Shown here: positions 40,260 through 61,540 of the stretch, one piece after another
Layout of the letters: every line of letters begins with the position of its first letter
Numbering within the stretch: the stretch's first letter is position 1
Program-made: the position numbers and the translations under genes
NCBI GenBank assembly: GCA_904419295.1
Contig: CAJFRA010000001.1
Span: 121,768-185,767 of the forward strand
Direction: 5' to 3'
From: Candidatus Pseudobutyricicoccus lothianensis
GTDB taxonomy: Bacteria; Bacillota; Clostridia; Oscillospirales; Butyricicoccaceae
Length of the DNA stretch: 64,000 nt
The notes under the pieces: generated by a model
Told to the model about the DNA's origin: nothing
Databases searched by the model: none
What the model saw: the letters and a program-made list of their open reading frames with translations, nothing else

Positions 40260-40628
40260 ATGACCAAGGATTTGAAGAGGCAGCACCAGTGGGGCAAGAT
40301 CTCGCTGCGGGTGCAGCGGGGGCTTCAGACGGCGGCAATTGTGTGCTATATGGCTGTGATGTTTGTTCAGCCTGCGGCGGCAGCATCGACCACGGACACA
40401 ATCTGGACCCGGTTTTCTACCATCATGGCGGACATCTACGGGGAACTTTTGGGTATCTCCACGATTGTCGCCGTGACGGCGGCGGCCGTAGCCCTGCTGG
40501 TGCGGATGATCTCCCGGAACGAGAGGGCGGTCGCTGAGATCGTCGTGACCTGGATCGTGTTGAACACTTTGGGATTCATTGTGGCCTATCTGCAGCCGCT
40601 GATCCAGGGCGGCCAGTATACGCCCTGA
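40260..40628 (+). CDS. TrbC/VirB2-like conjugal pilin
   Basis: Signal-like region, two TM segments, short length, T4SS context. Confidence 0.7.
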   Translation: MTKDLKRQHQWGKISLRVQRGLQTAAIVCYMAVMFVQPAAAASTTDTIWTRFSTIMADIYGELLGISTIVAVTAAAVALLVRMISRNERAVAEIVVTWIVLNTLGFIVAYLQPLIQGGQYTP

Positions 40629-40662: not shown

Positions 40663-41640
40663 ATGTCAGTGAAGTCAAAAATTTTGTCCGCCACTGCATC
40701 ACTGCTGTTGCTGACCATGCTGACGCTGCCTGCCAGTGCAGCCAGTGTGGACATAGCAGACCCAAACGCCATGCTGCCTGTCGATATTATCATCGATCAG
40801 GACAACAAGGAAATCCGCAAAGTATACGATCTCTCCCCTGATACCGACCCATCTACACTGCCCATGGACCAGTTTGATCGGGATGGTCTTCGGTACGAAT
40901 GCACGGATGTGTTGCGAGAAGTCATCATAGGCAGTGAGACACAGACCGTCACCCAGACTGAAACTGTGGAGAGTAGCAAGAAGGATATGGATACGATTCT
41001 GTCCCTGCTGCCGCAGGAGAAGGAAGTCACCACGGAAGAGGGCTTTGCCGGAACGCTTATCTTGGATTTAGACAGCATCAAGACAGAGCCTTCTGGCTAT
41101 GGCAGTTCAACACAGCCTGTCACTGCAACCAGGACTTACCCAAACCTAGCCGATCAGGACCTCAACCACCTGCCCAAGAGTATTGCAGAGGGGGGCCGGA
41201 CGCTGACATTGCAGGATGTCCAGTGGCAGACGGACAACACCTACAATGCCGATGATTATGAAATTGGCGACCGCTTTACTGCGATTTGCACCTATGGCGG
41301 CAGCAAGAGTGTCAGCTATGTGACCGGCTATACCACGACGGCCGATTACACTGGCGAGGTCTACCGCACCGGCGTCACCGTCATCCGCTATACCGTCATC
41401 TTCACCGGCACACCCATCGAGCCGGAGGTTCCTGAGCAGCCGCAGGAACCAGAAAGCAATCTCAATTGGCTGATGGTAGCTCTCCCTGTATTGGCTGCTC
41501 TCGGCGCTGGTACGGGTGGAACCTATTTCATCATGAAACGAAAGGAGTGCAAAATGTATGAAAAAATGGCTGAAAACTGCGGCATTGCTGCTGTCGATCA
41601 CAGCGATGATGATGACACCGGCTCTGGCAGCGGATTATGA
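40663..41640 (+). CDS. Secreted membrane-anchored ICE protein
   Basis: Signal peptide ILSATASLLLLTMLTLPASAAS; C-terminal TM LMVALPVLAALGAGTGGTYFIMKRKECK. Confidence 0.7.
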   Translation: MSVKSKILSATASLLLLTMLTLPASAASVDIADPNAMLPVDIIIDQDNKEIRKVYDLSPDTDPSTLPMDQFDRDGLRYECTDVLREVIIGSETQTVTQTETVESSKKDMDTILSLLPQEKEVTTEEGFAGTLILDLDSIKTEPSGYGSSTQPVTATRTYPNLADQDLNHLPKSIAEGGRTLTLQDVQWQTDNTYNADDYEIGDRFTAICTYGGSKSVSYVTGYTTTADYTGEVYRTGVTVIRYTVIFTGTPIEPEVPEQPQEPESNLNWLMVALPVLAALGAGTGGTYFIMKRKECKMYEKMAENCGIAAVDHSDDDDTGSGSGL

Positions 41641-42349
41641 ATTTGATCCGCCGGACGGTCCCATGTACGCGTCCCCAACCTCAGTCGACCAAGTGATTGT
41701 CGTAGGGGAAGGCACTACGGACCGCAGCAATATCGACCGCAGCAAGAATACCGCCGTCATCGCGCCGCCCTTCGGCAGCCCGGAGTCTTATCAACCCGGA
41801 TCAGGCACGGCTTTGATTCCACAGGCAACCACATCAACATCAGCTGGAACCGCAACAGGCAGCAGTACAATCTATCTTCCGCCGGCGTCTTATGAAGATG
41901 GAACACCGGCGGAAGACACCAGCCTGACTGATACCAAATTTACATTGCCGGACGGGCTCTATTATTCGGACGGTAGCCTTGGTCGTCTGAAAATCCCATC
42001 ACTGGGGCTATCTGTCAAAGTCTATGAAGATGAAAGCCTTGAGAGCCTGGCCAAGGGCGCCGGCCACTTCAAGTCCACCTCCTGCTGGGATGGGAATGTG
42101 GGTCTGGCTGGCCATAACCGTGGCGTTGCCAATCATTTTGGACAAATCCATACTCTGGAGAATGGGGACAAGATCACTTATACCACCAGGCTCGGAACCC
42201 GGACCTATGAGGTGTTTTATGTGGGGCAGATCAAGGAGACGGACTTTTCCAGGCTCGGCCGAACCAGCGAAAATATGATTACGCTGATCACCTGTGTTCG
42301 AAATGTACCTGAACTGAGGTGGTGTGTTCAGGCGCGAGAAGTCCAATAG
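41558..42349 (+). CDS. Sortase family protein
   Basis: Signal peptide; GRLKIPSLGLSVKVYED, catalytic His VGLAGHNRG, catalytic Cys MITLITCVRNVPELRWCVQARE. Confidence 0.88.
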   Translation: MKKWLKTAALLLSITAMMMTPALAADYEFDPPDGPMYASPTSVDQVIVVGEGTTDRSNIDRSKNTAVIAPPFGSPESYQPGSGTALIPQATTSTSAGTATGSSTIYLPPASYEDGTPAEDTSLTDTKFTLPDGLYYSDGSLGRLKIPSLGLSVKVYEDESLESLAKGAGHFKSTSCWDGNVGLAGHNRGVANHFGQIHTLENGDKITYTTRLGTRTYEVFYVGQIKETDFSRLGRTSENMITLITCVRNVPELRWCVQAREVQ

Positions 42350-42391: not shown

Positions 42392-42426
42392 GTTTGTAAG
42401 ATTACATGAAAAGGAGGGGCAACTCA

Positions 42427-43827
42427 ATGAAAAAGTGTGTTTCGGTGGTTTTGTGCCTTATGCTGACGCTTTCCATCTCAACCCACGCGATGGCCGCTGC
42501 GTCGGATGAGTTTGGACTTGCTGTAGACTCTCTGCGCGAGCAAGGGATCATGGTGGGCGACCAGAATGGGAATTTGAATTTGGAAAGCCATCTGACCCGC
42601 ATCGAGATGGCCACCATTCTGACGCGGCTGCACGGCGGATCGGAGACTGTACCCGGCCACTACGACTGGGCCTGCTATTATACCGATGTTCCGGATTGGG
42701 CCAGGGGCTATGTTGGTTACTGCACGGCGAATCTGCTGATGGTTGGTTATGGGAATCAAAGGTTCGGCTCGAATGACCCTGTGACGCCGCAGATGGCGTG
42801 TACGGTGATCCTTCGCGCGTTCGAATATGCAGACGGCGAGGGCACGGCCTGGAACTATGACAGCGCCTGCAGTTATGCCATTGGTCTGGGCCTGATCGAG
42901 CCGGAAACGGCCGGCGCCGAACTCATGACCCGCGGGGAGATGGCGGTGCTGATCTACCGGGCGCAGTCGGGCCAGCCCGAGGTGCCCGGTGTTCCGGTCT
43001 TCCAGGCAGAGGGTATCCGTCTGGCCCAGGATGGCAGCGTCATCAGCAAAACCATCACACAGCCGGACTGGAGCCGGGCAGATTTCAGCCAGGAAGCCAA
43101 CCCGGAGATATTCTCCGGCGTCTACTCCCGCGGCTGGTACAATGCAATCCGGCAGAGTCTTGTGGACAGGGACGCGATCCTTGACGGAAACAACAGTGCG
43201 AATTTTAACCCGCAGTACCTCTACGCCCACACAGTCGTCACAGACGATCGTGCAGAAGCCACCGCATTTGCCTATATCCTCGGGCGGCTCGGCGGTTATA
43301 CCTACTTTACTCTGGGCGCCGAACCCTATGTGGAGAACCAGTATGATTACCCTGGGTATGCCATTGTCAAGGTATCCACGGAAACAGGGTATCAAGAGGC
43401 GCTGTCTTTCATTGAGCCGGAACTGGAGCGGATCGCCGGGATGGATACACGCAGTCAAGTGATTGCGCTGAATCATTACCTCTGCGACCTGATGGAGTAC
43501 GACGCATCTGGAAGCGCGTCCGCACATGAGATCTTCTCCGCGCACGGTACGCCGGTTCCCGGCCGGTGCAGCAGTTACGCGGCTGCATTTGCCTTTCTCT
43601 GCGGGGCATCAGACATTCCATGTGTCCTGGTGTCTTCCGATACGCACACCTGGAATGAGGTCTATGTCGATGGACAGTGGCAGGTTGTCGATGTATCTGC
43701 CAACGATGCCGCCGGCGGCCCCAACCAGGACAACTACCTGCTGAAGGAACGATCCCCCGGTACGGACCGGTGTCCGCAGGGCACGCAATTTGCAAAGGAA
43801 CTTCTGGTACCCGGATCAACAAAATAG
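42427..43827 (+). CDS. SLH-domain protein with transglutaminase-like domain
   Basis: Signal peptide, three SLH repeats, Cys-His-Asp triad context GTPVPGRCSSYAAAF / TWNEVYVDGQWQVVDVSAND. Confidence 0.88.
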   Translation: MKKCVSVVLCLMLTLSISTHAMAAASDEFGLAVDSLREQGIMVGDQNGNLNLESHLTRIEMATILTRLHGGSETVPGHYDWACYYTDVPDWARGYVGYCTANLLMVGYGNQRFGSNDPVTPQMACTVILRAFEYADGEGTAWNYDSACSYAIGLGLIEPETAGAELMTRGEMAVLIYRAQSGQPEVPGVPVFQAEGIRLAQDGSVISKTITQPDWSRADFSQEANPEIFSGVYSRGWYNAIRQSLVDRDAILDGNNSANFNPQYLYAHTVVTDDRAEATAFAYILGRLGGYTYFTLGAEPYVENQYDYPGYAIVKVSTETGYQEALSFIEPELERIAGMDTRSQVIALNHYLCDLMEYDASGSASAHEIFSAHGTPVPGRCSSYAAAFAFLCGASDIPCVLVSSDTHTWNEVYVDGQWQVVDVSANDAAGGPNQDNYLLKERSPGTDRCPQGTQFAKELLVPGSTK

Positions 43828-43928: not shown

Positions 43929-46900
43929 ATGCACATCAAACGAAGAACTTCGAGAGCCGTTGCCATGCTGCTCGCTCTGGCCACGATGTTCTCCCTTCTG
44001 GTAAGTCCGGCCTCAGCTGCAGTGCCGCCGGACAACAGCGGCTCCATTGCCGACGGCAGTTCAAGCGTAACCATCGACCAGGGCAGTTACATTCGCGTTT
44101 TGAATAAATCTACCGGCGGAACTATCGGCGGCTCCTCTTGGACCTATACCTCCGATAAGGGCCTCACCGGTCCGGCCTATTGCGTCAACTGGGGGCTGAA
44201 CGCAGTCAGTCCCACCAAGCGCCTGGAGATCACCGGACGGTATGACCGGAACCCGCAGACCATGGGTGCGTTTGCCAATGGTTATCCGCAAAGAACGCTC
44301 GCCCAGTTCAAGGAACTCCACCCGGAGATTCCTGGAATTGCCAATTTGACCGAGGATGAATACGCCTATGCCACGCAGCTGGCCATCTGGGCTACCTGCG
44401 GCCAGTTGGCCGTAGCCGGTACATCCTTTACCTCCGGTCGGGCTACTCTGGTAAGACCCACATCGGATGCCCAGCAGATCAGAGTTTACAATTCTGTCGT
44501 GGAGATTCTGAAACTGGCCGCAGGCTGGACCAAGCAGATTTACACCGGCCTGTATTTCCATATGGAAAAGGACCGCCTGGGCAATACCCTGAACATCTAT
44601 GATGAAAATGGACTGGAGGGCGCGGCTGAGAAAGGCCTGTTCGGGCTCCAGAAGGAGACCATCAACGGTACCGAATACTATACCAGGCTGATGTATATTG
44701 ACAGCGCGACCTCCACATACCCCAACGATTATGAGATCTATGTCTATTCCATGGATGCCCCTGCCGGCACCATCTTTGTCAACCAGAATAACCAGGTATT
44801 TGAGACCCGGGATCAATGGGGCGCCACCATGTACGAGGTGCCGACGCCCAAGGCGGAGACGACCAATCTTAATGCAAATGGCTCGGCCTACACCGGCGCA
44901 TTCAAGATCTGTATTCCGTGCGACAACGCGGGCGACGCCGGAAGCATCAAAATAGAGGCCTATACCGTTCTGACCCAGTTCAACTTATATCTTGCATACA
45001 ATCCCACGGCCAGCGAGCAGAGTTATATCATTGCCGACCCCGCCTATGTGGGACGGTTCGCCGAGTCCAGCATCACATGGAATACGACCGAGGAAGTCCC
45101 GGAGACCGCCAGTCTGCAGGTCCAGAAGGTGGACGGCGCGGCCAACCCGCTGGAGGGCGCGGAGTTTACCTTGACGGGCAGCAAGGGGACGACCCGGACG
45201 GGCACATCCGACCAGAACGGCATGGTGGTCTGGACTGACCTGCCCGCGGATGAAGATTATGTACTGACGGAATCCAAGGCACCGGCCGGGTTCACCATCG
45301 TAGCACCCCGGAACATTACCCTGACCGCCGGGCAGACTGCCCATGTCACCGTGCAGGACAGCACGGAAAAGCATTTCTGGCTCAAAAAAATCGACGCGCA
45401 GAATGGGTCTGCTCTGCAGGGGGCCGTCTACAAATTTGAGCAGATTGACGGAGATTTTGTGACGACCGCGACCACCGGCTTCGATGGAATGATCGAGTTC
45501 GCCGGCGAGGAACTGCCCTTCGGCAGTTTCCGTGTGTCGGAACTGCAGCCACCGGAGGGGTATATGCCGTCCGACGAAGTGCAGACCGTCCACTGGGACG
45601 GGACGGAAGACGTCACATTGACCTTCCGGAATGTGCGGGAGATTACCGTCGTTTTATCGAAAATTGACGGAAAGTCCGGCATTTCTCTGCCCGGCGCCAG
45701 TTTCGATGTCTTTCTGGACGGGGAATACATCACCTCTGTGACCACCGATGACGCGGGAGAGGCCCGGGTCACCCTGGAGAAGGAAGGCTATGTGGAATTC
45801 GTGGAGACCGCAGCGCCGTCCGGATACCGTCTGGACCGGACGCGGCACGGTATCCATGTAGACCCCTATGACCCGGCCATCGAGGAGGATCCGGTCATCA
45901 CGGTGGAGAATTTTGAAAACCCGTCGCTGCGGATCATCAAGGTGGATCGGAAGAACAACTACGCTCCGCTGGAGGGTGTCACCTTCGAGGTGTTCCGGGA
46001 CGGCGAGTCGCTGGGGCACTTTGTGACCGACAGCGAGGGGCGTATTGAACTGTTTGACCAGGAGCCTGGCACCTTCCGGGTCGTTGAAGTGGACACCGGG
46101 AATCCGGGCATCATCCTCTCCGGAGGCTACCAGGAAATTGAACTGAAGGCCGGCGATCCCACACGGGAGCTGGTCTTTTTTAATGACCATACGCCGGGAT
46201 TGAAGCTGGTGAAGGTCGATTCCAGCGACTACTCCAAGGTGATCGCCAACGCCGTCTTCGAGATCAAAGCGGTGGACGGCAGTTATGGGCCGGAGGAGTT
46301 TCGCACGGATGTCAACGGCGAAATCGACCTGTCCGCAGAGAATTTGCCTGCGGGTGCCTATGTGGTGACGGAGAAATCCTGCCCGGGCTATGTAGTGGAT
46401 GACGCCCAGCGCATCATCTATCTCGATCCCAACGAAGACGCTGAGTTTGTATTCACCAACTCCAAGCTCCCGTCGCTGGAGCTGATCAAGACCTCGGCTG
46501 ACGGCACGCCTCTGGAGGGGGTCAGTTTCCGGCTGGCCAAGATCGAGGACGGCAGTTATTACCTGGACCGCACCACCGATTCGGAGGGCCGCATCGTATG
46601 GGATTCTCTGGACCCGGGCGTCTATTCCCTGCGTGAGATTTCCACTTTACCCAATCATATTTTAGACCCAAAAGAGTACCACATTGAGGTATTTCCGGGC
46701 GAAAACAGCACAAAAACGCTGTCTAACGATGTCCGGCCGAACCTCTACATCCACAAACGGGACGCCGCCACGGGAGATCCAATCCCCGGGACGGTTTACT
46801 TGGTGAAAGCGGCGGACGGCCACACCATCGACCAAGTGGAGACGGACGAGACGGGCACCGCCGTGGTGGAGAACCTCCTGCCCATGGTGGTCGAGATCGT

Positions 46901-49580
46901 TGAGGTCTCGGTGCCGGAGCCCTATCTGCTTGCAGAGGAGTCCCAGTTTACGACCCTGTACCCCAATGAAGACAGCCATGTCTATTTCGAGAACTCTACC
47001 CGTCCTGTTATCGAGATCCTGAAACTGAACGAAATCACCCAGGATCCTCTCGAAAATGTGCCCGTGCAGGTCTGGTACGCCAGCAATAACACGGCCACCG
47101 GAGAATACAACGACCTGGGCGTATTCTACACCGATTCGGAAGGCCGTATTGTCTTGAGTGATCCTGACCTGTCTCTTAGAGACGGCTGGTTCCGTATCGA
47201 GGAGTTGGAAGCCCCGAAAGGCTTCTCCATGACGGAATCCAGCAAGCAGGAGGCCTTTGTGCCCGCGGGTGAAAGCCATACCTTCCGCGTCTACAACCGG
47301 CCCAACTCGGCCATTTGCGTATGGAAGTATGATTCGGAGACGGGGGCTGCTATCGAGGGGGCTGTGTTCCAGGTCCGTTACCTCTCCGGCAACACCAGCG
47401 GCACCGGCGGCACGGTCATCGGGACCTACCGCACTTCGATCAATGGTTCCTTCACGGTGACCGACTGTGAGCCGGGCACCTACATCATCGAGGAACTCTC
47501 CAGCGACGGCTCTCATGTCATCGACACCCCGCCCCAGACGGTCTACCTGTCCGGCGAGGAGCAGGAGACGGTCCAGGTGTTTTTCGGCAACAGTCCCATG
47601 GGCTCTCTGTTGATCAAGAAGGTGTCCAGTTCCGATAACTCCCCGATTTCCGATGTCCAGTTCTTCGTGACCGAGAGCGACGGCACTGTGGTAGGAGATG
47701 GCAATGGCTACTTCACCACCGACTCCGCGGGTACCATCCTGATTGAAGGCATCGAGCCTGGCACGACGCTGATCGTCAAGGAAACCAGGACAAAAGAAGG
47801 GTTCCTTCTGGATGACACGCCTCAGACGGCCCAGATCAAGGCTGGCCAGACGGTCACTTTGGAGTTCCGAAATCAGCCAAAAGGCAATTTGATCGTACAC
47901 AAATTGTCGAGTACCGACAAGCAGCCGCTTGAGGGGGTTCAGTTCAAAATCACCTATGCGGACGGCTCCTACCTTGCAGACGAGAATGGCCACCTGTCCT
48001 CCAACGGCCTGTACTGGACCAATTCCGGGGGCCAGATCGTCCTCTCCAATGTCACCGGCACACTGGTCGTCACTGAGGTACAGAGCATCGAGGGGTACAC
48101 CATCGACCCCGATACCCAGAGTCAGACCGTCGTGGTCAATCCGGATGATACGCAGGAGTTGTGGTTCTATAACGATCCGGTGGGCGGCTTGGAACTCATC
48201 AAGGTAAACGAGAGCAAGACCTCGGAGCGGATCCCCAACACCACCTTTGAGATCCGCAGAATGGATGATGCCTTAGTTGATACCATCACAACGGACCGCA
48301 ACGGAAGGGCATTCCTGGCACTGGAAGACGGCTCTTACTATGCCGTTGAAGTGGAAGCAAATTCCGATTTCATCCTGGACAGTACACCCCACTACTTTGA
48401 AATAAAGGGTGGTAATGTGTACACGCTGCGTGTCACCAACGCCGAAAAGTCCGGCATTCTCATCCACAAGGTGGACCAAAATGGTGAAGGCATCTACGGG
48501 GTCAAGTTCCTCTTATATGACGAAGATAGGAACCCCATCGGCGAGTTTGTCAGCGATAACAACGGCTATGTCCATATTACTGCCGATGACCTCCCGGACG
48601 GAGCCAACACCAGCGGCCGCTTCTATTTGCGCGAGCTGGAGGTGCCGGATGGCTACATCATAGACGAGGAGTACAAGACGGTCTATGTGCGTCCGGGGCA
48701 TACCGCGGAGATCGAGTGGGTCAACGCGGCGATCACCGCTCAGATCCAAATCTGGAAGAAGTCTGCCGATGACAATCCCATCAACGGCTTCCCGGCGGGT
48801 ACCCCTCTGGAGGGAGCGGTCTTTGAAATCTATAACAAGGCCAACGTCTTGGTGGACACCATTGAGAGCAACAGCCGCGGCCTTGCGGTTTCCAAACCGC
48901 TCCCCCTGGGCCGCTATATCATCAAAGAGGTGTCCAGCCCCCAGTTTTACTCGATCAACAGCGAGGAAGTGACCGTTTATCTGGAGCACGAGGGCCAGAT
49001 CGTTCAGATGGAATGGCTGAACGAAAGCGTCTATACCAACGTCTCCATTGACAAGAGCGGCTACACGCAGGTCGTGCCTGGGCAGGAGATTCGGTACACT
49101 TTCCAAGACATCGGCAACAACTCCACCGTCCCGCTGAGCAATTTCTACTGGCGCGACACGCTGCCGACAGATGCAGTCCGGTTGGATAAGATCATCACCG
49201 GAACCTACTCGGCACGGCTCAACTATAAGGTCGTCTACCAGACCAACCTGAACAATACTCAGCGCGTACTGGCCGACAACCTGAATACGCAGCAGAATTA
49301 TACCCTGGATGCCTCCGCGGCGGCGCTGGGACTGGCCTCCAACGAGTACGTAACGCAGGTCACCTTCCTCTTTGGCCAGGTTCCCGCCGGCTTTAAGCAG
49401 GTGGAGACGCCCTACATCTACTGTGACGTCCTGTCCGGACTGGCCCACGAGTATCGCTTTGCCAACAAATGCGATGTGGGCGGTATGTGGCAAAACCAGT
49501 GGATCCAGGCGACCGACCGGTGGGTGACCATCATCTACCGCGGCGGCCCGACCCCGACCCTGCCCCGGACAGGCTATTGA
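43929..49580 (+). CDS. Thioester-domain (TQxA) adhesin with about 14 CnaB/SpaA-type repeats, terminal LPRTGY
   Basis: 1883 aa from ATG 43929; AYCVNWG and YATQLAIWA thioester signature; repeated xxKxD...GxxF..F modules; C-terminus RGGPTPTLPRTGY*. Confidence 0.88.
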   Translation: MHIKRRTSRAVAMLLALATMFSLLVSPASAAVPPDNSGSIADGSSSVTIDQGSYIRVLNKSTGGTIGGSSWTYTSDKGLTGPAYCVNWGLNAVSPTKRLEITGRYDRNPQTMGAFANGYPQRTLAQFKELHPEIPGIANLTEDEYAYATQLAIWATCGQLAVAGTSFTSGRATLVRPTSDAQQIRVYNSVVEILKLAAGWTKQIYTGLYFHMEKDRLGNTLNIYDENGLEGAAEKGLFGLQKETINGTEYYTRLMYIDSATSTYPNDYEIYVYSMDAPAGTIFVNQNNQVFETRDQWGATMYEVPTPKAETTNLNANGSAYTGAFKICIPCDNAGDAGSIKIEAYTVLTQFNLYLAYNPTASEQSYIIADPAYVGRFAESSITWNTTEEVPETASLQVQKVDGAANPLEGAEFTLTGSKGTTRTGTSDQNGMVVWTDLPADEDYVLTESKAPAGFTIVAPRNITLTAGQTAHVTVQDSTEKHFWLKKIDAQNGSALQGAVYKFEQIDGDFVTTATTGFDGMIEFAGEELPFGSFRVSELQPPEGYMPSDEVQTVHWDGTEDVTLTFRNVREITVVLSKIDGKSGISLPGASFDVFLDGEYITSVTTDDAGEARVTLEKEGYVEFVETAAPSGYRLDRTRHGIHVDPYDPAIEEDPVITVENFENPSLRIIKVDRKNNYAPLEGVTFEVFRDGESLGHFVTDSEGRIELFDQEPGTFRVVEVDTGNPGIILSGGYQEIELKAGDPTRELVFFNDHTPGLKLVKVDSSDYSKVIANAVFEIKAVDGSYGPEEFRTDVNGEIDLSAENLPAGAYVVTEKSCPGYVVDDAQRIIYLDPNEDAEFVFTNSKLPSLELIKTSADGTPLEGVSFRLAKIEDGSYYLDRTTDSEGRIVWDSLDPGVYSLREISTLPNHILDPKEYHIEVFPGENSTKTLSNDVRPNLYIHKRDAATGDPIPGTVYLVKAADGHTIDQVETDETGTAVVENLLPMVVEIVEVSVPEPYLLAEESQFTTLYPNEDSHVYFENSTRPVIEILKLNEITQDPLENVPVQVWYASNNTATGEYNDLGVFYTDSEGRIVLSDPDLSLRDGWFRIEELEAPKGFSMTESSKQEAFVPAGESHTFRVYNRPNSAICVWKYDSETGAAIEGAVFQVRYLSGNTSGTGGTVIGTYRTSINGSFTVTDCEPGTYIIEELSSDGSHVIDTPPQTVYLSGEEQETVQVFFGNSPMGSLLIKKVSSSDNSPISDVQFFVTESDGTVVGDGNGYFTTDSAGTILIEGIEPGTTLIVKETRTKEGFLLDDTPQTAQIKAGQTVTLEFRNQPKGNLIVHKLSSTDKQPLEGVQFKITYADGSYLADENGHLSSNGLYWTNSGGQIVLSNVTGTLVVTEVQSIEGYTIDPDTQSQTVVVNPDDTQELWFYNDPVGGLELIKVNESKTSERIPNTTFEIRRMDDALVDTITTDRNGRAFLALEDGSYYAVEVEANSDFILDSTPHYFEIKGGNVYTLRVTNAEKSGILIHKVDQNGEGIYGVKFLLYDEDRNPIGEFVSDNNGYVHITADDLPDGANTSGRFYLRELEVPDGYIIDEEYKTVYVRPGHTAEIEWVNAAITAQIQIWKKSADDNPINGFPAGTPLEGAVFEIYNKANVLVDTIESNSRGLAVSKPLPLGRYIIKEVSSPQFYSINSEEVTVYLEHEGQIVQMEWLNESVYTNVSIDKSGYTQVVPGQEIRYTFQDIGNNSTVPLSNFYWRDTLPTDAVRLDKIITGTYSARLNYKVVYQTNLNNTQRVLADNLNTQQNYTLDASAAALGLASNEYVTQVTFLFGQVPAGFKQVETPYIYCDVLSGLAHEYRFANKCDVGGMWQNQWIQATDRWVTIIYRGGPTPTLPRTGY

Positions 49581-49644
49581 TAGAACACGACTGCGGCGGG
49601 GGCGGCACAATGTCCGCCCCCGCTCCTTTTGAGGAAACAGAATC

Positions 49645-51801
49645 ATGTTAGATTGGATTTTCGAAGGCATAGCCAACTGGGTAGCCGGTATCATGACCCA
49701 GATCATGGATGCTATCTCTGGGGTGTTCCTGGGCGCTTTGGGTACGGATATGACCGCAATGGAGGAGTATTTTCCCTTCGCGGTCAGCGCCTACACCATC
49801 ATTCAGTACACCGCTTGGGCGCTGCTCTTCCTGATCGTGGTCTGGCAGATCTTCCGTGCATTCAGCGGACCGCTGGCGGAAACAGAGAACCCTCTCGCCG
49901 TCGTGGCCCGTGGCGCTATTTTCGCGCTCCTGATCGGCTATGCAAAGCCTATTTTCAGTCTCGTTCTGGATATCGCGCGGGCGCCCTATACCGCGCTTAT
50001 GGACGCATCTCTCGATCCCGGCGACTTTACTTTTGCGGGAATTGAGCAGGCAATCACAAATGGACTGACTACGCTGGTTTCTGTAGCCACGGTTGTTGGC
50101 CTGATTTTGTTGATTGTATTGATGATCTCTCTGGCCTGGAACTATTTCAAACTGTTGCTGGAAACCGTAGAACGGTATGTGCTTGTCGGCGTACTCTGCT
50201 ACACCTCGCCGCTGGCATATGCAATGGGGGCCTCCAAGGCCACCAGCCGTGTGTTCCAGAGTTGGTGCCGCATGGTCGGCTCCCAACTCCTGCTTCTAGT
50301 ACTCAATGTGTGGTTCCTCCGTGCATTCAACTCTTCTGTAGGCCAGTTTATCGCCAATGGCGGTGCTCTGACCACCGGACAGGGCAACATCTTCCTCTGG
50401 TTTTTCTGCGCCCTTGCCCTATTAAAAGTCGCCCAGAAATGCGACAGTTACCTGGCGGCCTTGGGACTGTCCGTGGCGCAGACCGGGAGCAGCATGGGTA
50501 TGGAGATGCTGATGGCCGCCCGGACGCTGACCGGATTTGCCAAGGGCGGCGGCGGAAGCGCAGCCTCGGTGTTCGGCGGCGCGACGAAGGCCGGTACAGG
50601 TGCGGCTGCTGGCACTGCGGGCGGTGTTGCCGCATCGAGCGGTATCCTGTCCGGCTTTATGAGTCGGTATAAGCCCAACAGTTTTGTGCGCGATGCCGTT
50701 GTGGACGGTGGCAGCCGCATGGGCGCGGGCGGCGGAGTCGGCTTTGTCGGCAGGGTCTTCGGCGGTATGGCGGCGCGCAACGGCGCCACACTGACCCCGG
50801 ACTCGGTTGCGTCTGTGGCCACTCGTCCGCCCAACGTCTCCGGCACTATCGCCGGCGATATCGCAGACCGCAGTCTCAAGGGGTATATGCCCCACTTGGG
50901 CAATGGCTCAGCGGCCAATATGATCTATTCCGGAACCCAGATTACCGGTGGCCGCATCACCACCACCGCCACAACTCAGGACGGCCAGCAGGCCAAGGTT
51001 GACTTTTACAACGCAGCACAGCATGAGAGGCCCAGTACCCCGCACACAGTGGTCACGGCAGCTGATGGGAGCCAGTGGTACCAGGTTGCCTCCGGCAACG
51101 GGATGGGCGCTTTTTACGCCACACCCGCATTTACCGGTGATGTATCCGAGGCTGCCCAGGTCGCAGAGGCCTTCCCGGATGCGCCGGAAGGCACCCAGTT
51201 GCGACAGGTGGATGAGGGCACCATGGAGGCAACCTATCCGAGTGGCAGCAATGCCCTTTGGTACAACAGCGCCTACTTCCAGGAGCCGGACGCTCCGCAT
51301 GAGGTGATCCAGAGCGCGGACGGCCTGGACTGGTACGCCATGACACCGGCGGCCTCTGTCCCGCCGTTTGATCCCCAGACGCCGGCAGACAGTTCCGGCC
51401 CTGCGTCGCAGTACAATCAGGCGGTGTTTACACAGTTCATGCCCGGCTTTGACCAGCCTGTGGTCTCCGTGGACAGCTCCAGAGCCAGTGACGGCATCCT
51501 GGAGGTGCGGCATGAGGACGGCAGCGGCACAGCTTTCTACGACCGCACGATATACCAACCGCCGCGCGGCGACTACCATGTGTACGAGGATAGCGCGGGC
51601 AGTCAGTGGTACGCCATTCCCGGCACACCGGCGGTGGAGCGCCGGCCGGTCTATGAGAATGGGAAACCGGTCTATGACGGCGAGACACTGAAGACGGTCA
51701 ATGTGGAAACGATCCGCTATAAGACCACGCCTACCAGACATACAGAGCCGCAGAAAAGGCCGGTCAACGAACGGAAACCGCCAAACAGAAAGAAATCTTA
51801 A
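49645..51801 (+). CDS. VirB6/TrbL-like T4SS membrane protein
   Basis: Multiple TM segments at N-terminus followed by Gly/Ala-rich and long hydrophilic C-terminal region. Confidence 0.75.
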   Translation: MLDWIFEGIANWVAGIMTQIMDAISGVFLGALGTDMTAMEEYFPFAVSAYTIIQYTAWALLFLIVVWQIFRAFSGPLAETENPLAVVARGAIFALLIGYAKPIFSLVLDIARAPYTALMDASLDPGDFTFAGIEQAITNGLTTLVSVATVVGLILLIVLMISLAWNYFKLLLETVERYVLVGVLCYTSPLAYAMGASKATSRVFQSWCRMVGSQLLLLVLNVWFLRAFNSSVGQFIANGGALTTGQGNIFLWFFCALALLKVAQKCDSYLAALGLSVAQTGSSMGMEMLMAARTLTGFAKGGGGSAASVFGGATKAGTGAAAGTAGGVAASSGILSGFMSRYKPNSFVRDAVVDGGSRMGAGGGVGFVGRVFGGMAARNGATLTPDSVASVATRPPNVSGTIAGDIADRSLKGYMPHLGNGSAANMIYSGTQITGGRITTTATTQDGQQAKVDFYNAAQHERPSTPHTVVTAADGSQWYQVASGNGMGAFYATPAFTGDVSEAAQVAEAFPDAPEGTQLRQVDEGTMEATYPSGSNALWYNSAYFQEPDAPHEVIQSADGLDWYAMTPAASVPPFDPQTPADSSGPASQYNQAVFTQFMPGFDQPVVSVDSSRASDGILEVRHEDGSGTAFYDRTIYQPPRGDYHVYEDSAGSQWYAIPGTPAVERRPVYENGKPVYDGETLKTVNVETIRYKTTPTRHTEPQKRPVNERKPPNRKKS

Positions 51802-51871
51802 TATTTCAGGCAGGCGCACTCCCAAGCGGGTGCGCCTGCCGCCTTATTCCAGCATAAAAGAGGTGACTACA

Positions 51872-53407
51872 ATGTCCGATGAACAACGCTTCGGTGAAGG
51901 GCAGGATAATTATCTGCAGGGGATGCGGCAGGCGGCAGAGGCAGCGCGGCAGTTTGGCTCCGCGGCCGGTACGGCCGGCGCGACTGGGGCTGCGGCGGGA
52001 GAAGCCGCGGCCAACGCCGCTGCGGCAACAGTACAGGCAGGTGTAGAGGGCGGTAAGGCTGTAGCGGGAATCGCTGCCGGTACGGCGGCAGGCGGACCGT
52101 GGGGCGCTGTTCTATCCGCCGCATGGTCTCTCCGTCATACGCTATTCAAAATTCTCATTTTCCTCTGCCTATTCCTGTTATTTATCATCATTGCCGTGGT
52201 ATCTCTGCCATCCATTGTATTCAATAATATCTTCCGCACCGATCCGTCAACGGTCGATCCCAATGCGCCCACGGAGGTGACCGCGAGTTTTGACGATATG
52301 TCCGCCGTGGTTTCAGACTGCATTCAGGCGGGCTACGATGCCGCGCTGGCTGAGGTAGACCAGATTATTGCGGATGGCGGCTATGACTACGACCTGTCCA
52401 TGCAGGCACTGGTCAACAATGCATTGATCTCCACTGAGTACGATACCTGCTATGTCCTGGCCGCCTACTCCGCCTCCATGGGGCAGCGCGGCACCACAAA
52501 GGCAGATCTCCAGAGCAAGCTCAACGCGGTTGCAGACCAGATGTATGCTGTCACCTATGAGGTAGAACAGACTCAGGTGCCGGTGGAGAGCGATGATTCA
52601 GCGGATAGCAGCCAAGATGACAGCGGCACAGATACCGATGACGAACTCGAGATGCAGACGGTGGAGTATGTGGCCTGCACCATCCATCCCTTTGACCAGT
52701 CAGTCATTCTGACCGCGTTCGGTGTGGACACCAATGCGCAGTATGACCAGTTCAATGTCACCTATGGAGAAGCAATCCTCAATATGTCCAACTCGCTGAA
52801 AATGACCATGTACGGAACAGCCGCTGACGGCAGCGTACCACCCATCAGCGATGCGGAACTGAACCTTTTTCTTGCCAATCTGGACTGCAGCGGGAAACGA
52901 AAGGAGCTGATGCGCTGCGCCCTGTCCCTGGTGGGCCGCGTCCCGTATTTTTGGGGAGGGAAAAGCGCCCCGGGCTGGAACAGCGAGTGGAACACCCCAA
53001 AACTGGTTACTGCAGCAGGCTCAAGCAGTACGGGGACGATCCGCCCCTACGGGCTCGACTGCTCGGGATTCACGGAGTGGGTGTATCAGACTGCACTGGG
53101 CGTGACCCTGTATGATGGGACCTGGAACCAGTGGGACGCTACCCATGCCATCGCCAAAGAGGAACTGTTGCCTGGCGACCTGGGCTTCATGGCTGTGCCC
53201 GGCACAGTTCCGGTCAACCATGTGCTGCTCTATGCGGGCGAGGACGCCGATGGCAATATGCTCTGGGTACACTGTGCCAGCGGCACCGGCGTGGTGCTCA
53301 ACTCACCCGACTATGTGACGCAGTACCGGCGCAGGAATGACATCGACCTGGAGGGCGATTTGACCCCGGCCGTGAGCACAACAGAGGAGGCAGGAGCCGA
53401 TGGATGA
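51872..53407 (+). CDS. T4SS-associated NlpC/P60 (C40) cell wall hydrolase
   Basis: One TM after an Ala-rich N-terminus, YGLDCSGFTEWVYQTALG, VNHVLLYAGED. Confidence 0.88.
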   Translation: MSDEQRFGEGQDNYLQGMRQAAEAARQFGSAAGTAGATGAAAGEAAANAAAATVQAGVEGGKAVAGIAAGTAAGGPWGAVLSAAWSLRHTLFKILIFLCLFLLFIIIAVVSLPSIVFNNIFRTDPSTVDPNAPTEVTASFDDMSAVVSDCIQAGYDAALAEVDQIIADGGYDYDLSMQALVNNALISTEYDTCYVLAAYSASMGQRGTTKADLQSKLNAVADQMYAVTYEVEQTQVPVESDDSADSSQDDSGTDTDDELEMQTVEYVACTIHPFDQSVILTAFGVDTNAQYDQFNVTYGEAILNMSNSLKMTMYGTAADGSVPPISDAELNLFLANLDCSGKRKELMRCALSLVGRVPYFWGGKSAPGWNSEWNTPKLVTAAGSSSTGTIRPYGLDCSGFTEWVYQTALGVTLYDGTWNQWDATHAIAKEELLPGDLGFMAVPGTVPVNHVLLYAGEDADGNMLWVHCASGTGVVLNSPDYVTQYRRRNDIDLEGDLTPAVSTTEEAGADG

Positions 53408-53849
53408 CAGAGAATACAGCAATGTCTACACCATCCCGCCCAATTATACGGATTCCGGCAAGCTGCTGGGCGGCATGCTGGAGACCCGCAACACAGTAGA
53501 GGCGATCATTCTGCTCCTGCTCGTGGGTTATCCGGAGCTGATGTGGCTTCATATCCCAGTCACAGCTAAGGTCGTAGTCATGACCATGACTCTGCTGCCG
53601 CTGGGTGTTTTTGCCCTCATGGGGCTGGGTGGCGACTCGCTGCTTCAGTTCGTCACCCACATGATTCTGTTCTGGATGCGGCGTCGCCAGCTTCATTACA
53701 GGAGGATAGGATATCGCTATGGCACAACAGACACGAACAGGAAACAAGCGCCGCCGAACAAGTCCGGGCCGTCGGCAAAAGGCGGCGGAACGTCTGGAGT
53801 TCGTCCAGGACTACATCCCAATCAAAGAACTCCGAAACGGTATCATTGA
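53400..53849 (+). CDS. PrgI/TcpE-like conjugation membrane protein
   Basis: YTIPPNYTDSGKLLGGMLETRNTVEAIILLLLVG, directly upstream of VirB4. Confidence 0.75.
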   Translation: MDDREYSNVYTIPPNYTDSGKLLGGMLETRNTVEAIILLLLVGYPELMWLHIPVTAKVVVMTMTLLPLGVFALMGLGGDSLLQFVTHMILFWMRRRQLHYRRIGYRYGTTDTNRKQAPPNKSGPSAKGGGTSGVRPGLHPNQRTPKRYH

Positions 53850-56343
53850 GACGACCGATGGCAGGTTTATTAAAATTCTGGAGATTGAGCCCATCAATTT
53901 TCTGCTCCGCTCTAATGAAGAGCAATGGGGTATCATCTCCTCCTTTGCCAGCTGGCTCAAGATTTCCCCCATGCGCCTGCAGTTCAAATCGGTCACCCGC
54001 AAGGCGGATTCCGACCGGTACCTGGCCGGACTGGAGGCAGATATCGAACGGGACGAGGTGCAGGCTTGTCGTGAACTGGGCCGGGGCACCATCCGATTCA
54101 TCCGGGAGGAGGGTAGCCGGGAGGCGCTGACACGTCGCTTTTTCCTAATATTTCAGTATGAGGCCGTTCGACGTCAAGGCGACACTGATTACGGCGAGGT
54201 CTATGCGGCCCTGCAAACGGCGGCGCAGAATGCCAGAACCTATTTTACCCAGTGTGGCAACAGCATCGTGCAGCCCAAGGACGAGGACGCCTTTGTGGCC
54301 GAGATCCTATACATGTACTTCAACCGCCGCTCCTGCGTGGATGACCCCTTCCAAAACCGGCTCAACCGCGTGGTGGTAGATGCCATGGCGGCAAAGAAGC
54401 GGGTCGTTGGTATCGACCCGGTGCCTAAAATCCAGGCGGTCAACTTCGTGGCGCCCCGCGGCCTCGACCTGACCCATCCCGGTTATCTCATTATGGATGG
54501 GATCTATTACACCTACCTATACATCCGCAAAAATGGTTTCCCTCAGCAGGTGCGGGGCGGCTGGATGTCCTCGCTCATCAATGCGGGCGAGGGCGTGGAT
54601 GTGGATCTGCACCTGCGCCGCGAGATCCGTGGCAAGACCATTGACCGGGTTGCCCAGCGCATCCGGCTCAACCGTACAAAACTGCGGGAACTGCAGGACA
54701 CTTCAACTGACTATGAAGAACTGGCCGGCTCTATCCAAGCCGGCTATTACATTAAGCAGGGGCTCTCCAGCCGGAACGAGGACCTGTTCTATATGACGGT
54801 GATCATCACTGTGTCCGCCCACACCTATGAGGAACTGCTGTGGCGAAAACAGCAGATGACCGACCTGATGAAGTCCATGGACATCCAAGTGAGCGACTGC
54901 CTGTTCCAGCAGGAGGCGGCGCTGCGCTCCACCATGCCGTTCCTCTATATCGACCCCAGCCTAGAACGGAAAGCCAAGCGCAATGTGCTCACATCCGGCG
55001 CGGCCTCCACCTACATGTTCACAAGCTTTGAGCTCTCCGATGACAATGGTATTCTGCTGGGCCTCAACCGGCACAACAACTCGCTGTGCATCGTGGATCC
55101 GTTCAATACCAAGGTCAATAAGAACGCCAACTTTACCATCTGCGGCACTTCAGGCGCCGGCAAGACTTTTACTATGCAGGTGATGGCACTGCGATTAAGA
55201 ATGCGCGGCGTCCAGTGCTTTATCCTGGCCCCTCTCAAGGGTCATGAGTTCAAGCGTGCCTGTCACAAGATCGGAGGCACCTATATCAAACTGGCGCCTG
55301 GCTCCAGCGCCTGTATCAATGTCATGGAGATCCGTCCCACTCTGACGCCAGAGATGGAGTTGATCGATGAGATGGATTACAGCGACATCGATTCTATGTT
55401 GGCAAGGAAGATCCAACAGCTGATGATCTTCTTCTCCTTACTGGTACCAGACATGAGCAACGAGGAGGAACAGATGCTGGACGAGGCTTTGGTTAAAACT
55501 TACGCCAAGTTCGGGATTACCCACGATAACAACTCCATCTATGAAGATCAGGTCGGTGGGGAGGTCAAGACCATGCCTATCCTAGGCGATCTCTATGAGG
55601 TCCTCAAGGAGAACCCGCTGACCACCCGCTTGGCCACTATCGTCAGCCGTTTTGTCACCGGCAGCGCCCAGAGTTTCAACCACCAAACGAACATCGATTT
55701 GCGGAATCGCTACGTTGTTCTGGACATCTCCGAGCTGAAGGGCAAGCTGCTCCCAGTAGGCATGATGATCGCACTGGACTATGTGTGGGACCAGGTGAAG
55801 GCCGACCGCACCAAAAAGAAGATGGTATTTATCGACGAGATTTGGAAACTCATCGGCGGTTCGGCAAATAAGCAGGCGGCTGAGTTCTGTTTGGAGATTT
55901 TCAAGATCATCCGCGGCTATGGTGGAGGCGCTGTTGCAGCCACACAGGACTTGTCCGACTTCTTCGGGCTGGAGGATGGCCGCTACGGAAGGTCCATTCT
56001 CAACAACTCCAAGACAAAGATTATCCTGAACTTGGAGCCGGACGAGGCAGAGTACGTCAAGGATGTCCTGAAACTGACCCGCACTGAAATCCGAAGCATC
56101 ACCCAGTTTGAACGCGGCGAAGCATTGATCTCCAGCAACAGCAATAAGGTGCCGGTCATCATCAAGGCGTCCCGGGAGGAGCAGCAGATGATCACAACTG
56201 ACCGGGCGGAACTGGAAGCCATGCTGAACGAGCTGAAAGCTGTGGCAGATGTAGCCGATTTGGCCCAGGTCCCTTCCGAAACGGAAAAGGAGATGGAGTG
56301 CAGCACCGCTCCTGTACCGGCGGATAGCCCAAATAAGAGGTGA
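53719..56343 (+). CDS. VirB4-like conjugal transfer ATPase
   Basis: Walker A FTICGTSGAGKTFTMQ, Walker B KMVFIDEIWKLIGG, GGAVAATQDLSDFF. Confidence 0.95.
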   Translation: MAQQTRTGNKRRRTSPGRRQKAAERLEFVQDYIPIKELRNGIIETTDGRFIKILEIEPINFLLRSNEEQWGIISSFASWLKISPMRLQFKSVTRKADSDRYLAGLEADIERDEVQACRELGRGTIRFIREEGSREALTRRFFLIFQYEAVRRQGDTDYGEVYAALQTAAQNARTYFTQCGNSIVQPKDEDAFVAEILYMYFNRRSCVDDPFQNRLNRVVVDAMAAKKRVVGIDPVPKIQAVNFVAPRGLDLTHPGYLIMDGIYYTYLYIRKNGFPQQVRGGWMSSLINAGEGVDVDLHLRREIRGKTIDRVAQRIRLNRTKLRELQDTSTDYEELAGSIQAGYYIKQGLSSRNEDLFYMTVIITVSAHTYEELLWRKQQMTDLMKSMDIQVSDCLFQQEAALRSTMPFLYIDPSLERKAKRNVLTSGAASTYMFTSFELSDDNGILLGLNRHNNSLCIVDPFNTKVNKNANFTICGTSGAGKTFTMQVMALRLRMRGVQCFILAPLKGHEFKRACHKIGGTYIKLAPGSSACINVMEIRPTLTPEMELIDEMDYSDIDSMLARKIQQLMIFFSLLVPDMSNEEEQMLDEALVKTYAKFGITHDNNSIYEDQVGGEVKTMPILGDLYEVLKENPLTTRLATIVSRFVTGSAQSFNHQTNIDLRNRYVVLDISELKGKLLPVGMMIALDYVWDQVKADRTKKKMVFIDEIWKLIGGSANKQAAEFCLEIFKIIRGYGGGAVAATQDLSDFFGLEDGRYGRSILNNSKTKIILNLEPDEAEYVKDVLKLTRTEIRSITQFERGEALISSNSNKVPVIIKASREEQQMITTDRAELEAMLNELKAVADVADLAQVPSETEKEMECSTAPVPADSPNKR

Positions 56344-58401: not shown

Positions 58402-59541
58402 ATGATTACGCTGCGGCCGGGCAGTCACGCATACCGCCTGCTGCTGGTACTGGCTGTTTCAGGCGAATACCCCATGCACTCCCTGCATCTGCTGGGCAGC
58501 AGCCGGGCGCTGGAGGATACGGTCCGGCGTCTGGAGAATGTGCAGCAGTTTCGTTCTCCCTCCGGGGCAGACCTTGGCACCTGTAAAATGCTTACCACGA
58601 GCGGAAGAGGTGACCAGCGGACCATCCGTCTGTATAAGGGGGCGCTCCCTCTCCTGCAGTCCATCCACCCGGCAGCCCTCACACACTATATGCTCCTCAC
58701 TGGTGGACATCGCTTTTCCGGAAGCGCGGGACACGTGGAGCGTAACCACCGTGTGGCAGAGTCGGTTGCGGTATGTCTGGCGGCCGGCGTGGAGATGCGC
58801 ACCTTCCTACTGCCTTCACTCCAGAAGCGGGCAATCCGACAGGTCGTACCCGAGTATGCCTGCTTTTACCCGGCCAGATCCGTCAAGCAGCTGGACCGCA
58901 CGGAGATGAGCAAGACTATCTTCACGCGGGTCACGGGTGCGCTCTTCACACCCGGCTATTGCTACGCCGTCTACAACACGAGAAATGCAGTTATGCGGTG
59001 GAGTGGAATGGGAGAGTTCAAAACCGCCCGACACCTGGAGGAGTTGTCCCGCATGAATGCGGGGCCTGCCCGGGCAGGCCATGCCATCCTGCTCGGGAAG
59101 CGTATGGAACTGGCCCTGCAGACCCTACTGGAGTCCGACAGAAGCAAAAGCATGGAGCTGCGTTTTGACCGCATTTACCCCCATGTGCATTTCATCCCTA
59201 TGACCGAACACGGCATTCGGCTCTTGAGAATCCTGACACTCCTAGACTGGAATGAACGAGTACTGTCCGCGGTATTCCCGGAGGAGATGCGGGCCGTGCG
59301 GCCGGGCGTGATGGAATATGACGCCCAAAACGGGGATACCCTCATCCTCTCCCATCTGGACGGCGACATCGCTAGGCTGGTGCGGGTGCGCCAGGCGCTG
59401 GAGCACAGTGACACGCCATATGAGATTCTGTGTTTCCCTTGGCAGAGTCAATTTGTGAATGGATATATGGGCGGCCGAGCGCAACTGCGTGAGGTTCCCA
59501 TGTCCGATTTGGAGTCTGCGCTGGGTCTCGGGCAGCCGTAG
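58402..59541 (+). CDS. Hypothetical ICE protein, possibly DNA-binding
   Basis: MITLRPGSHAYRLLLVLAVSGEYPMHSLHLLGSSRALEDTVRRLENVQQF winged-helix-like start. Confidence 0.6.
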   Translation: MITLRPGSHAYRLLLVLAVSGEYPMHSLHLLGSSRALEDTVRRLENVQQFRSPSGADLGTCKMLTTSGRGDQRTIRLYKGALPLLQSIHPAALTHYMLLTGGHRFSGSAGHVERNHRVAESVAVCLAAGVEMRTFLLPSLQKRAIRQVVPEYACFYPARSVKQLDRTEMSKTIFTRVTGALFTPGYCYAVYNTRNAVMRWSGMGEFKTARHLEELSRMNAGPARAGHAILLGKRMELALQTLLESDRSKSMELRFDRIYPHVHFIPMTEHGIRLLRILTLLDWNERVLSAVFPEEMRAVRPGVMEYDAQNGDTLILSHLDGDIARLVRVRQALEHSDTPYEILCFPWQSQFVNGYMGGRAQLREVPMSDLESALGLGQP

Positions 59542-59569
59542 GAGAATGATCTACGAAGGAGATGATGCG

Positions 59570-61540
59570 ATGCAATCCAAAAATGTCCGCATCGCCGGGA
59601 TCATACTGGCTATCCTGCTCGGTGCGGCGGCGCTGTTCTATCTGGGCGGTCTGGTCAGTCAGGCATATCTCGGCTACCAACAGTGGCAGGCGGACGGCGG
59701 ACTCGCCGGCGATGCCATCATGGCGCCTGTCCTTTTCTCGCCCTTGGAGTGCTGGCGCAGCGCCCTGACTGCAAATGGCCTGATATGCACACTTCTTTTA
59801 GCGCTGCTGGCCGGCGGCCTGTATCTCTTTCTCCGGCTCCAAGACCGTTTCAGGAGCAAGGACTATGACCCCCGCAACTTTACCCGCAGCAAGCGGGGCA
59901 CCTATGGCACATCTGGCTGGATGGTTGAGAAGGAGATGCGCTCCGTCCTGGAGGTGGCTAGTGTTGCGAAGGCCCGGGGGATCATCCTCGGAAAAACCGA
60001 GCAGGGGTCTGTCATCTGCCTGCCGGAGGACACACGGCTCAACAAGCACATCGCCGTATTCGGAGCCAGCGGAACCAAAAAGTCCAGAGGTGTGATACGC
60101 CCGGCGATCTTCCAGAGTATCCGGCGCGGCGAGTCGGTGATTGTGTCAGATCCAAAGTCGGAAATGTACGCCGACACAGCAGAACTGTTCCGAAAGCGCG
60201 GCTACACTGTCCGGGTCTACAACCTGCTGCAGCCGGAGTTCAGTGACTCCTGGAACTGTATGTTCGACTTAGGTGGCGACACCCTGATGGCACAGGTGCT
60301 CACCGATGTGATCATCTCCAACACCAAGGGCGATGGAAAGGGTGACCATTTCTGGGATAACGGTGAGGCAAATCTGCTCAAGAGCCTGATCCTCTATGTG
60401 GATCTAGACACCACCCGCACGGCAGAGGAGCGCAACCTGGCTGCCGTCTACCAGATGCTCACCCAGCACACCGAAAAGCAGTTGACCATGCTCTTCGACC
60501 GCCTGCCGCTGGACCACCCCGCCAGGGCACCGTACAACCTGTTCAGCCAAGGTAGCGACACCGTGCGGACGGGTGTTGTGTTGGGGCTTGGTACCCGGCT
60601 TCAGGTCCTTCAAGCTGAGTCAGTGCGCCGGATTACCCGCCGGTCGGACATCGACCTGGCGGAACCGGGCAAGAGCAAGTGCGCATACTTCGTCATCCTG
60701 GACGACCAGAATTCCTCCCTGGAGTTCCTGTCGTCCCTTTTCTTTGCGTTCCTGTTCATCCGGCTCGTCCGCTACGCAGACAGCACACCGGAGCAGCGAT
60801 GCAAGGTGCCCGTCAACATTATTCTGGATGAGATGAACAACATCGGCGTCATTCCTGACTTCGGGCGCCGTCTGAGTACGGTCCGATCCAGAGCCATGCA
60901 GATTATTATGGTCTGCCAGAGCCTTCCGCAGTTGCAGAACCGGTACCCCAATAACCTCTGGGCGGAGTTGTTGGGCAATGCGGACACCCAGATTATGCTG
61001 GGTGCCACAGACGATGTGTCGGCGGAGTACTTCAGCGCCCGCAGCGGCGATATGACGGTGGAGGTCAACTCCACCATGACCACTCGTCAAAGTCTCGCAC
61101 TGGCCCAGGTCATTCCCCAGTACCGATATACCGAGGGTATTGGCCGGCGCCGCGTGATGACGCCGGATGAGGTGCTTCGGATGCCCAATGACGAACTGCT
61201 CATCATCATCCGCGGCCAGAAGATCCTCAAGGCAAAGAAATTTGATTTCACAGAGCATCCGTACGCAAAGGAGTGCGTGAGGTGTCAGATTCAGGAGTAT
61301 AAGTCACAGTCTGTACAGGCGGCTACCCAGCCTGAACCAGCCAAGGCGCAGGTCCCGGTGCAGCCGGAGCATCCGGTCTCAACTGAGGCACCCACACCCA
61401 ATCCGAAACAGAAAGTGGCCGGCCTAAAGCCAGAGACAAAAGCCGCGCCGTCGGCCGGCCCACCGTCAGAATTACCAGCCAAGCCTGCCCGGCGGCCAAA
61501 GACCCTTTATGAAAGCAGCCGTCCACCGGCTGATTTTTGA
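59570..61540 (+). CDS. VirD4/TraG-like type IV coupling protein
   Basis: N-terminal TMs, HIAVFGASGTKKSRGVIRPAI, VIVSDPKSEMYADTAELFRKRGY, NIILDEMNNIGVIPDF. Confidence 0.93.
   Translation: MQSKNVRIAGIILAILLGAAALFYLGGLVSQAYLGYQQWQADGGLAGDAIMAPVLFSPLECWRSALTANGLICTLLLALLAGGLYLFLRLQDRFRSKDYDPRNFTRSKRGTYGTSGWMVEKEMRSVLEVASVAKARGIILGKTEQGSVICLPEDTRLNKHIAVFGASGTKKSRGVIRPAIFQSIRRGESVIVSDPKSEMYADTAELFRKRGYTVRVYNLLQPEFSDSWNCMFDLGGDTLMAQVLTDVIISNTKGDGKGDHFWDNGEANLLKSLILYVDLDTTRTAEERNLAAVYQMLTQHTEKQLTMLFDRLPLDHPARAPYNLFSQGSDTVRTGVVLGLGTRLQVLQAESVRRITRRSDIDLAEPGKSKCAYFVILDDQNSSLEFLSSLFFAFLFIRLVRYADSTPEQRCKVPVNIILDEMNNIGVIPDFGRRLSTVRSRAMQIIMVCQSLPQLQNRYPNNLWAELLGNADTQIMLGATDDVSAEYFSARSGDMTVEVNSTMTTRQSLALAQVIPQYRYTEGIGRRRVMTPDEVLRMPNDELLIIIRGQKILKAKKFDFTEHPYAKECVRCQIQEYKSQSVQAATQPEPAKAQVPVQPEHPVSTEAPTPNPKQKVAGLKPETKAAPSAGPPSELPAKPARRPKTLYESSRPPADF

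Follow-up and report, generated by a model that had tools for sequence, protein, structure and literature searches.

The textbook LPXTG sorting signal consists of three parts, and its removal normally releases the protein. Gram-positive conjugation often relies on adhesins with a C-terminal LPxTG that are anchored by a sortase, as described in a review of type IV secretion (PMC12857230), and in the conjugative-transposon adhesin CD3392 of Clostridioides difficile, deletion of the sorting signal led to loss of cell association (PMC5569036). The thioester adhesin TIEpLS20 of the conjugative plasmid pLS20 reportedly has no LPxTG sorting signal and does not depend on a host sortase (PMC8092201). 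In the type IX system of Porphyromonas, proteins carry a C-terminal domain that brings them to a transpeptidase, and the C-terminus is swapped for a surface anchor (PMC4560394), while laboratory sortase ligation uses short C-terminal tags of the LPETGG type on soluble proteins (PMC9126251). Here we describe a conjugation-associated adhesin of gut bacteria, in Candidatus Pseudobutyricicoccus lothianensis encoded within a stretch of 64,000 nucleotides that was analysed as a whole and is referred to below as the window, whose sorting end differs from the canonical signal.

The adhesin gene (43929..49580, plus strand) opens with an ATG at 43929, runs to 49580 and encodes a protein of 1883 aa composed of a signal peptide, a thioester domain (TED), about 14 SpaA/CnaB-type repeats, a conserved C-terminal domain (CTD) and a terminal LPRTGY followed by a stop. 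Its N-terminus was recognised by inspection as an export signal, MHIKRRTSRAVAMLLALATMFSLLVSPASAA. The TED covers residues 82-160 (44172..44408, plus strand; Pfam PF08341, 35.8 bits against a cut-off of 22, E 1.1e-8) and is likely to be the covalent binding head of the adhesin. The SpaA match (Pfam PF17802, E 7e-174) extends over 14 stretches and lies above its cut-off, and the NCBIfam SpaH/EbpB pilin model is passed with 102.7 bits at a cut-off of 95. The CTD (residues 1696-1883; 49014..49577, plus strand; alignment A4) was modelled by AlphaFold as a beta-sandwich with a pLDDT of 93.1, in which the last 10 or so residues are flexible and the tail block reaches only 59. No sequence match to the CTD was found in the PDB, and fold comparison revealed a weak similarity to collagen-binding and cohesin domains. 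Within this domain Lys14, Glu111 and Asn151 (numbering of alignment A4, window 49014-49577) are invariant, and, judging from sequence alone, these three residues may set up an intramolecular isopeptide bond such as occurs in related adhesin domains.

The C-terminus of the adhesin reads ...RWVTIIYRGGPTPTLPRTGY and is followed by an in-frame TGA and a TAG; its last residues can also be given as ...RGGPTPTLPRTGY, then TGA TAG. The minimal terminal sorting motif with its stop codon occupies 49560..49580 on the plus strand, with the LPRTGY codons at 49560-49577, LPRTG itself at 49560-49574 and the stop at 49578-49580. Past LPRTG there is no hydrophobic membrane segment, only a single residue and then the stop, and a positively charged tail is absent. 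The next gene starts at 49645, leaving a gap of only 64 bases, and reading through this gap revealed no encoded hydrophobic or basic tail, so that a frameshifted membrane tail finds no place here. The original prediction, that an exported adhesin of 1883 aa ends in LPRTGY-stop without a membrane segment or basic tail, thus held exactly.

Compared with the described systems, this ending shows both shared features and differences. With the canonical LPXTG signal (PF00746, as in CD3392 and protein A), the locus shares an exported adhesin, a C-terminal LPxTG and a catalytically complete sortase, and with CD3392 also the origin of the adhesin from a conjugative element; it differs in having no hydrophobic segment, no basic tail and a stop one residue after the glycine. 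Since two of the three parts of the sorting signal are missing, the adhesin falls outside the canonical LPxTG class. With TIEpLS20 it has in common the signal peptide, thioester domain, CnaB repeats, neighbouring conjugation genes and lack of a membrane tail, and it meets the sequence criteria of a TIE-type adhesin, namely a thioester domain with CnaB/SpaA repeats encoded together with a conjugation apparatus (here VirB4 and VirD4/TraG downstream); unlike TIEpLS20, however, it conserves an LPxTG motif and a dedicated sortase. The type IX C-terminal-domain proteins of Porphyromonas and their sortase-like PG0026 (PMC4560394) are alike in logic and have no membrane tail, but the proteins are unrelated, and there the entire C-terminal domain is cut off and the protein is joined to A-LPS of the Gram-negative outer membrane. 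Laboratory sortagging likewise combines a soluble protein with a minimal C-terminal LPxTG-X tag, and its sortase is soluble, as is predicted for the sortase here; yet it is man-made, whereas the present arrangement is apparently a natural design. The components (thioester adhesin, sortase and conjugation operon) are each of a known kind. In the open-access literature searched, we found no prior description of LPRTGY-type or LPxTG-aromatic-stop substrates, of secreted sortases or of conjugative-element sortases.

To determine how widely this end is shared, as the original prediction had proposed, the C-termini of homologues were aligned. The last 176 aa were searched against 87 genomes of the same family, an alignment together with an internal pattern was searched against a species-genome collection, and genomes of the class and phylum were searched as well. 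Homologues were picked by the internal peptide pattern [NS]F[YF]W[RH][DE]x[LI]P[TY] or by domain coverage and never by their tail. The sets gathered before the phylum search comprise 104 distinct C-termini, which form 44 clusters at 80% identity. Without exception, and far beyond what chance would give, they terminate in [LMIY]Px[TS]G, a single further residue and a stop, the final residue being Tyr in 86, Phe in 10, Trp in 5, Cys in 2 and Met in 1. The species-genome collection returned 111 relatives, of which 80 were kept; among these 80 fetched loci, every readable C-terminus (79/79) shows the motif plus one residue. The phylum search added two full-length tail-less relatives, both ending LPRTGY. 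Between the last conserved Trp and the motif, the relatives have anywhere from 8 to 19 residues, and the 67 copies of LPRTGY differ in their synonymous codons and use all three stops. Because linker length, codons and stops vary in this way, what selection preserves is the protein end itself, down to the one residue behind the glycine; it keeps the C-terminus at LPxTG followed by a single bulky residue that is mostly aromatic.

These relatives of the tail-less adhesin span many genera. Plasmid and phage collections yielded no relative, and a viral collection yielded one contig carrying one. The CTD of Flavonifractor sp. An10 (L022) is 98% identical to window 49050-49577, whereas most CTD-bearing genomes of the window's own family show only 38-61% CTD identity, a discrepancy that suggests a recent transfer of the element. 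Two further observations were made during these searches. At L012 / L128:9276-16976, an in-frame TGA interrupts the adhesin frame within the CTD and the remainder still ends LPTTGF-stop. In one genome (L159-L162, L177, L178), several proteins with a weak partial CTD match carry a membrane segment and basic tail and no LPxTG.

The dedicated sortase (263 aa; 41558..42349, plus strand) matches Pfam Sortase PF04203 with 81.5 bits against a cut-off of 26.6, and all 34 sequences of alignment A3, with identities as low as 30%, share its residues His186, Cys246 and Arg254. None of the NCBIfam class cut-offs is reached (class E 56.5 of 160, class C 55.2 of 160 and class D 45 of 165 bits). The nearest PDB structures by profile are 2kw8, 5hu4, 4d70 and 8t28, which we take to be class D/C-like sortases. 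The enzyme shares the sortase fold and His-Cys-Arg triad with classes D and C, but it scores far below their cut-offs and has a predicted signal peptide instead of an anchor.

This prediction rests on hydrophobicity and a conserved AxA site, without a dedicated predictor, and an anchored sortase is not excluded. The N-terminus carries a short hydrophobic stretch followed by A-x-A, with Ala24 invariant and Ala22 conserved in at least 90%, this enzyme has no second membrane segment, and 73 of 79 family sortases have no further hydrophobic segment; in the same bacterial family, most control sortases, whose substrates next door are tailed, show clear anchors at both the N- and the C-terminus. A lenient AxA text rule also matches the control sortases, so the case for secretion is built on the site's conserved place in the alignment and on a shorter hydrophobic stretch. 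On this basis, we consider it likely that the sortase is secreted by means of a cleavable-type signal peptide and has no membrane anchor. The most distant tail-less members possess a sortase with a normal N-terminal anchor (L172-L174, and L176 by inspection), and it is therefore the tail-less substrate, rather than the loss of the sortase anchor, that defines the system.

A search of the genome identified this enzyme as its sole sortase. No PF00746 anchor was found in the genome at the search threshold, at which weak anchors could be missed, and a PF00746 match of any kind was found in only 2 of the 14 genomes carrying the CTD from the 87-genome family search. The terminal-motif DNA pattern gave two occurrences elsewhere in the genome, one from the reversed-pattern control, and by this pattern search no other long frame in the genome ends in LPxTG plus one residue. 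With one sortase, no PF00746 anchor and no other such end, the sortase is left without an evident conventional substrate.

Directly upstream of the sortase lies p325 (40663..41640, plus strand; alignment A2), whose 3' end overlaps the start of the sortase gene by 83 bases. It consists of a signal peptide, a beta-rich outer domain of about 230 aa and a C-terminal membrane segment, and its structure model is confident for the outer domain only. The p325 of this locus has no Pfam family, no PDB sequence match and no convincing fold match. At two distant loci (L092:12744-14420 and L171:13929-15359), p325 and the sortase lie in one reading frame, with an internal second hydrophobic stretch and an AxA-type site between the halves. 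This fusion was rejected as proof of physical coupling because signal peptidase could split the halves at the internal site, and it is taken as evidence of functional linkage only.

The module is located inside a conjugation operon, as indicated by a VirB2-like gene on its 5' side and VirB4- and VirD4-type genes on its 3' side, all on the same plus strand. Upstream lies a VirB2/TrbC-like small membrane protein (40260..40628; Pfam TrbC E 0.0012, below cut-off). Downstream of the adhesin follow a multi-pass membrane protein (49645..51801), VirB6-like by position and hydrophobicity only and without a Pfam match, an NlpC/P60 protein in a VirB1-like position (51869..53407; Pfam NLPC_P60 9.3e-12), a VirB4-type ATPase (53719..56343; Pfam P-loop_TraG 2.1e-21) and a VirD4/TraG-type coupling protein (59459..61540; Pfam T4SS-DNA_transf 2e-57). 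Between sortase and adhesin, also on the plus strand, a secreted SLH-domain/transglutaminase-like protein is encoded (42424..43827; Pfam SLH 2.3e-10, Transglut_core 3e-9), which is present in some modules only (about 10 loci). Proteins of this kind beside the sortase (window 42424-43827; L125:1144-2274; L127:292-1407) share a C-terminal FAKELLVPxST.

The order p325, sortase, then adhesin is conserved between conjugation genes. Counting only loci where the adhesin frame is long and the sequence reaches 2.5 kb or more upstream (41 in all), the sortase is present in 37 and p325 also in 37. L074, one of the four misses, has an adhesin end like that of L104, in which p325 and sortase lie about 6 kb upstream of the adhesin, and this miss may be due to a short flank. 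A search that started from p325 found it in 29 of 396 genomes of the order, with a sortase adjacent in 33 of 35 loci, and the link between p325, sortase and adhesin persists where VirB4 is only about 20% identical. Six loci (L108, L111, L118, L123, L130 and L133) carry p325, mostly together with the sortase, and no recognisable CTD in the 20 kb fetched; their adhesin has likely been lost, broken or replaced. No second LPxTG-type protein was found in the module loci, each module having one. The module thus does not fit sortase-assembled pili, which have several pilin substrates and a polymerising sortase, even though the adhesin passes the SpaH/EbpB model.

The most distant relatives of the CTD provide a view of its history. 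In another family of the same phylum, five adhesins (L183-L187) carry a CTD that is homologous by profile comparison (E 3.8e-9 across the CTD); behind it come an LPKTG or LPNTG motif and then the usual membrane segment with a short basic tail. Since these proteins carry the normal tail, the tail-less form is a distinct evolutionary state and not a universal feature of the CTD. Their genomes each have a single sortase, located away from the adhesin locus, and no conjugation genes were recognised beside these adhesins. In 4 of the 5, a small membrane protein adjoins the adhesin and resembles p325 weakly: one of them matches with a profile E of 2.8e-5, and profile-profile comparison gives E 0.0043 at low probability. 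Should this weak homology hold, p325 would belong with the CTD rather than with the sortase. An LPxTG with membrane segment and basic tail in the normal arrangement was also observed in further distant CTD homologues (L188-L192).

It is because a p325-like protein neighbours CTD adhesins even without a sortase nearby that p325 is proposed as the docking partner of the CTD; this probable role is inferred, without any p325-CTD contact having been predicted. The need for some alternative means of retention follows from CD3392, which loses its association with the cell once its sorting signal is deleted. The conserved terminus, the catalytically conserved sortase, the conserved membrane partner and the conjugation context are shown; cleavage, ligation and localisation are inferred, and on balance we lean, by a narrow margin, towards a genuine sortase substrate of a tail-less kind that follows a route of docking and transpeptidation. 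In such a route, the adhesin would be exported completely, and would be held close to the cell by the folded CTD instead of a membrane tail, most likely because this domain docks on membrane-tethered p325. The LPRTGY end, which is flexible, would then be presented to the dedicated, mostly unanchored sortase, which would cut between Thr and Gly, shed the dipeptide Gly-Tyr and join the Thr to an amine of the cell surface, more likely a peptidoglycan peptide than a p325 lysine. The thioester head would face outward and grip the partner cell during mating. A bolder reading, for which the arguments seem to us evenly balanced, is that of a self-contained pathway in which a secreted sortase acts on fully exported substrates with a minimal LPxTG-aromatic tag, and the CTD and p325 provide retention in place of the membrane segment and basic tail that are regarded as necessary for sorting.

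Against the docking and transpeptidation route stand the clearly anchored sortases of L172-L174 and the lack of a detectable p325 in some tail-less members (L174, L176). The original prediction had read the tail-less end as implying a non-canonical sorting route, some other retention factor or a sortase that works on substrate already released. This is supported by the conservation, beside the adhesin, of a dedicated sortase and of p325 as a candidate retention factor, and sequence cannot separate the three. The support stops short of a demonstrated sortase reaction and applies within the family, the very distant homologues L183-L187 carrying a normal tail.

Other explanations were weighed against this route. 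The sortase might link the adhesin to a lysine of p325, whose membrane segment would then serve as the anchor of a two-part protein. In its favour, p325 is membrane-tethered, adjacent and conserved, and Lys53 is kept in 64 of 70 relatives. However, this residue is Arg in 5 and Glu in 1, and as no lysine of p325 is invariant, covalent attachment to one is disfavoured; moreover, tailed adhesins, for which such an anchor would be superfluous, also seem to have p325-like neighbours, and we regard this explanation as unlikely. Similarly improbable is that the adhesin is freely secreted, with an extracellular sortase ligating it to other cells or secreted partners and no retention by the producer. 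The adhesin indeed lacks a membrane anchor, as most family sortases are predicted to do, and deletion of the sorting signal in another conjugative-element adhesin led to release (PMC5569036), but p325 is membrane-bound and almost always present, distant sortases are anchored, and an adhesin that leaves the cell would serve its own donor poorly in mating.

A further alternative is that the motif remains uncleaved and that LPxTG-aromatic docks as a terminal peptide, either on the sortase fold or on p325, so that the adhesin is held non-covalently, perhaps as in TIEpLS20. The final residue is a strongly conserved aromatic that is not obviously needed in a leaving dipeptide, and TIEpLS20 functions without a sortase (PMC8092201); the full catalytic triad in every aligned sortase, together with the LPxTG that tailed homologues keep in a normal processing context, nevertheless makes this unlikely. 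Finally, an assembly error, frameshift or decayed gene, to which the tails of canonical sortase substrates and of the very distant homologues might point, is all but excluded by the shared end of 104/104 relatives across many genera and the lack of a tail encoded downstream. Neither of the refutations named by the original prediction was therefore borne out, as homologues within the family are tail-less without exception (104/104) rather than all carrying a membrane tail, and a frameshift or premature stop is rejected on these relatives and on the downstream DNA.

Annotation based on the three-part signal misses all such substrates. If the docking and transpeptidation route is true, a docking domain can replace the tail of a sorting signal, and the family would offer new sortases suited to short C-terminal tags. 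It would also bear on how some Gram-positive conjugation adhesins stay on the cell.
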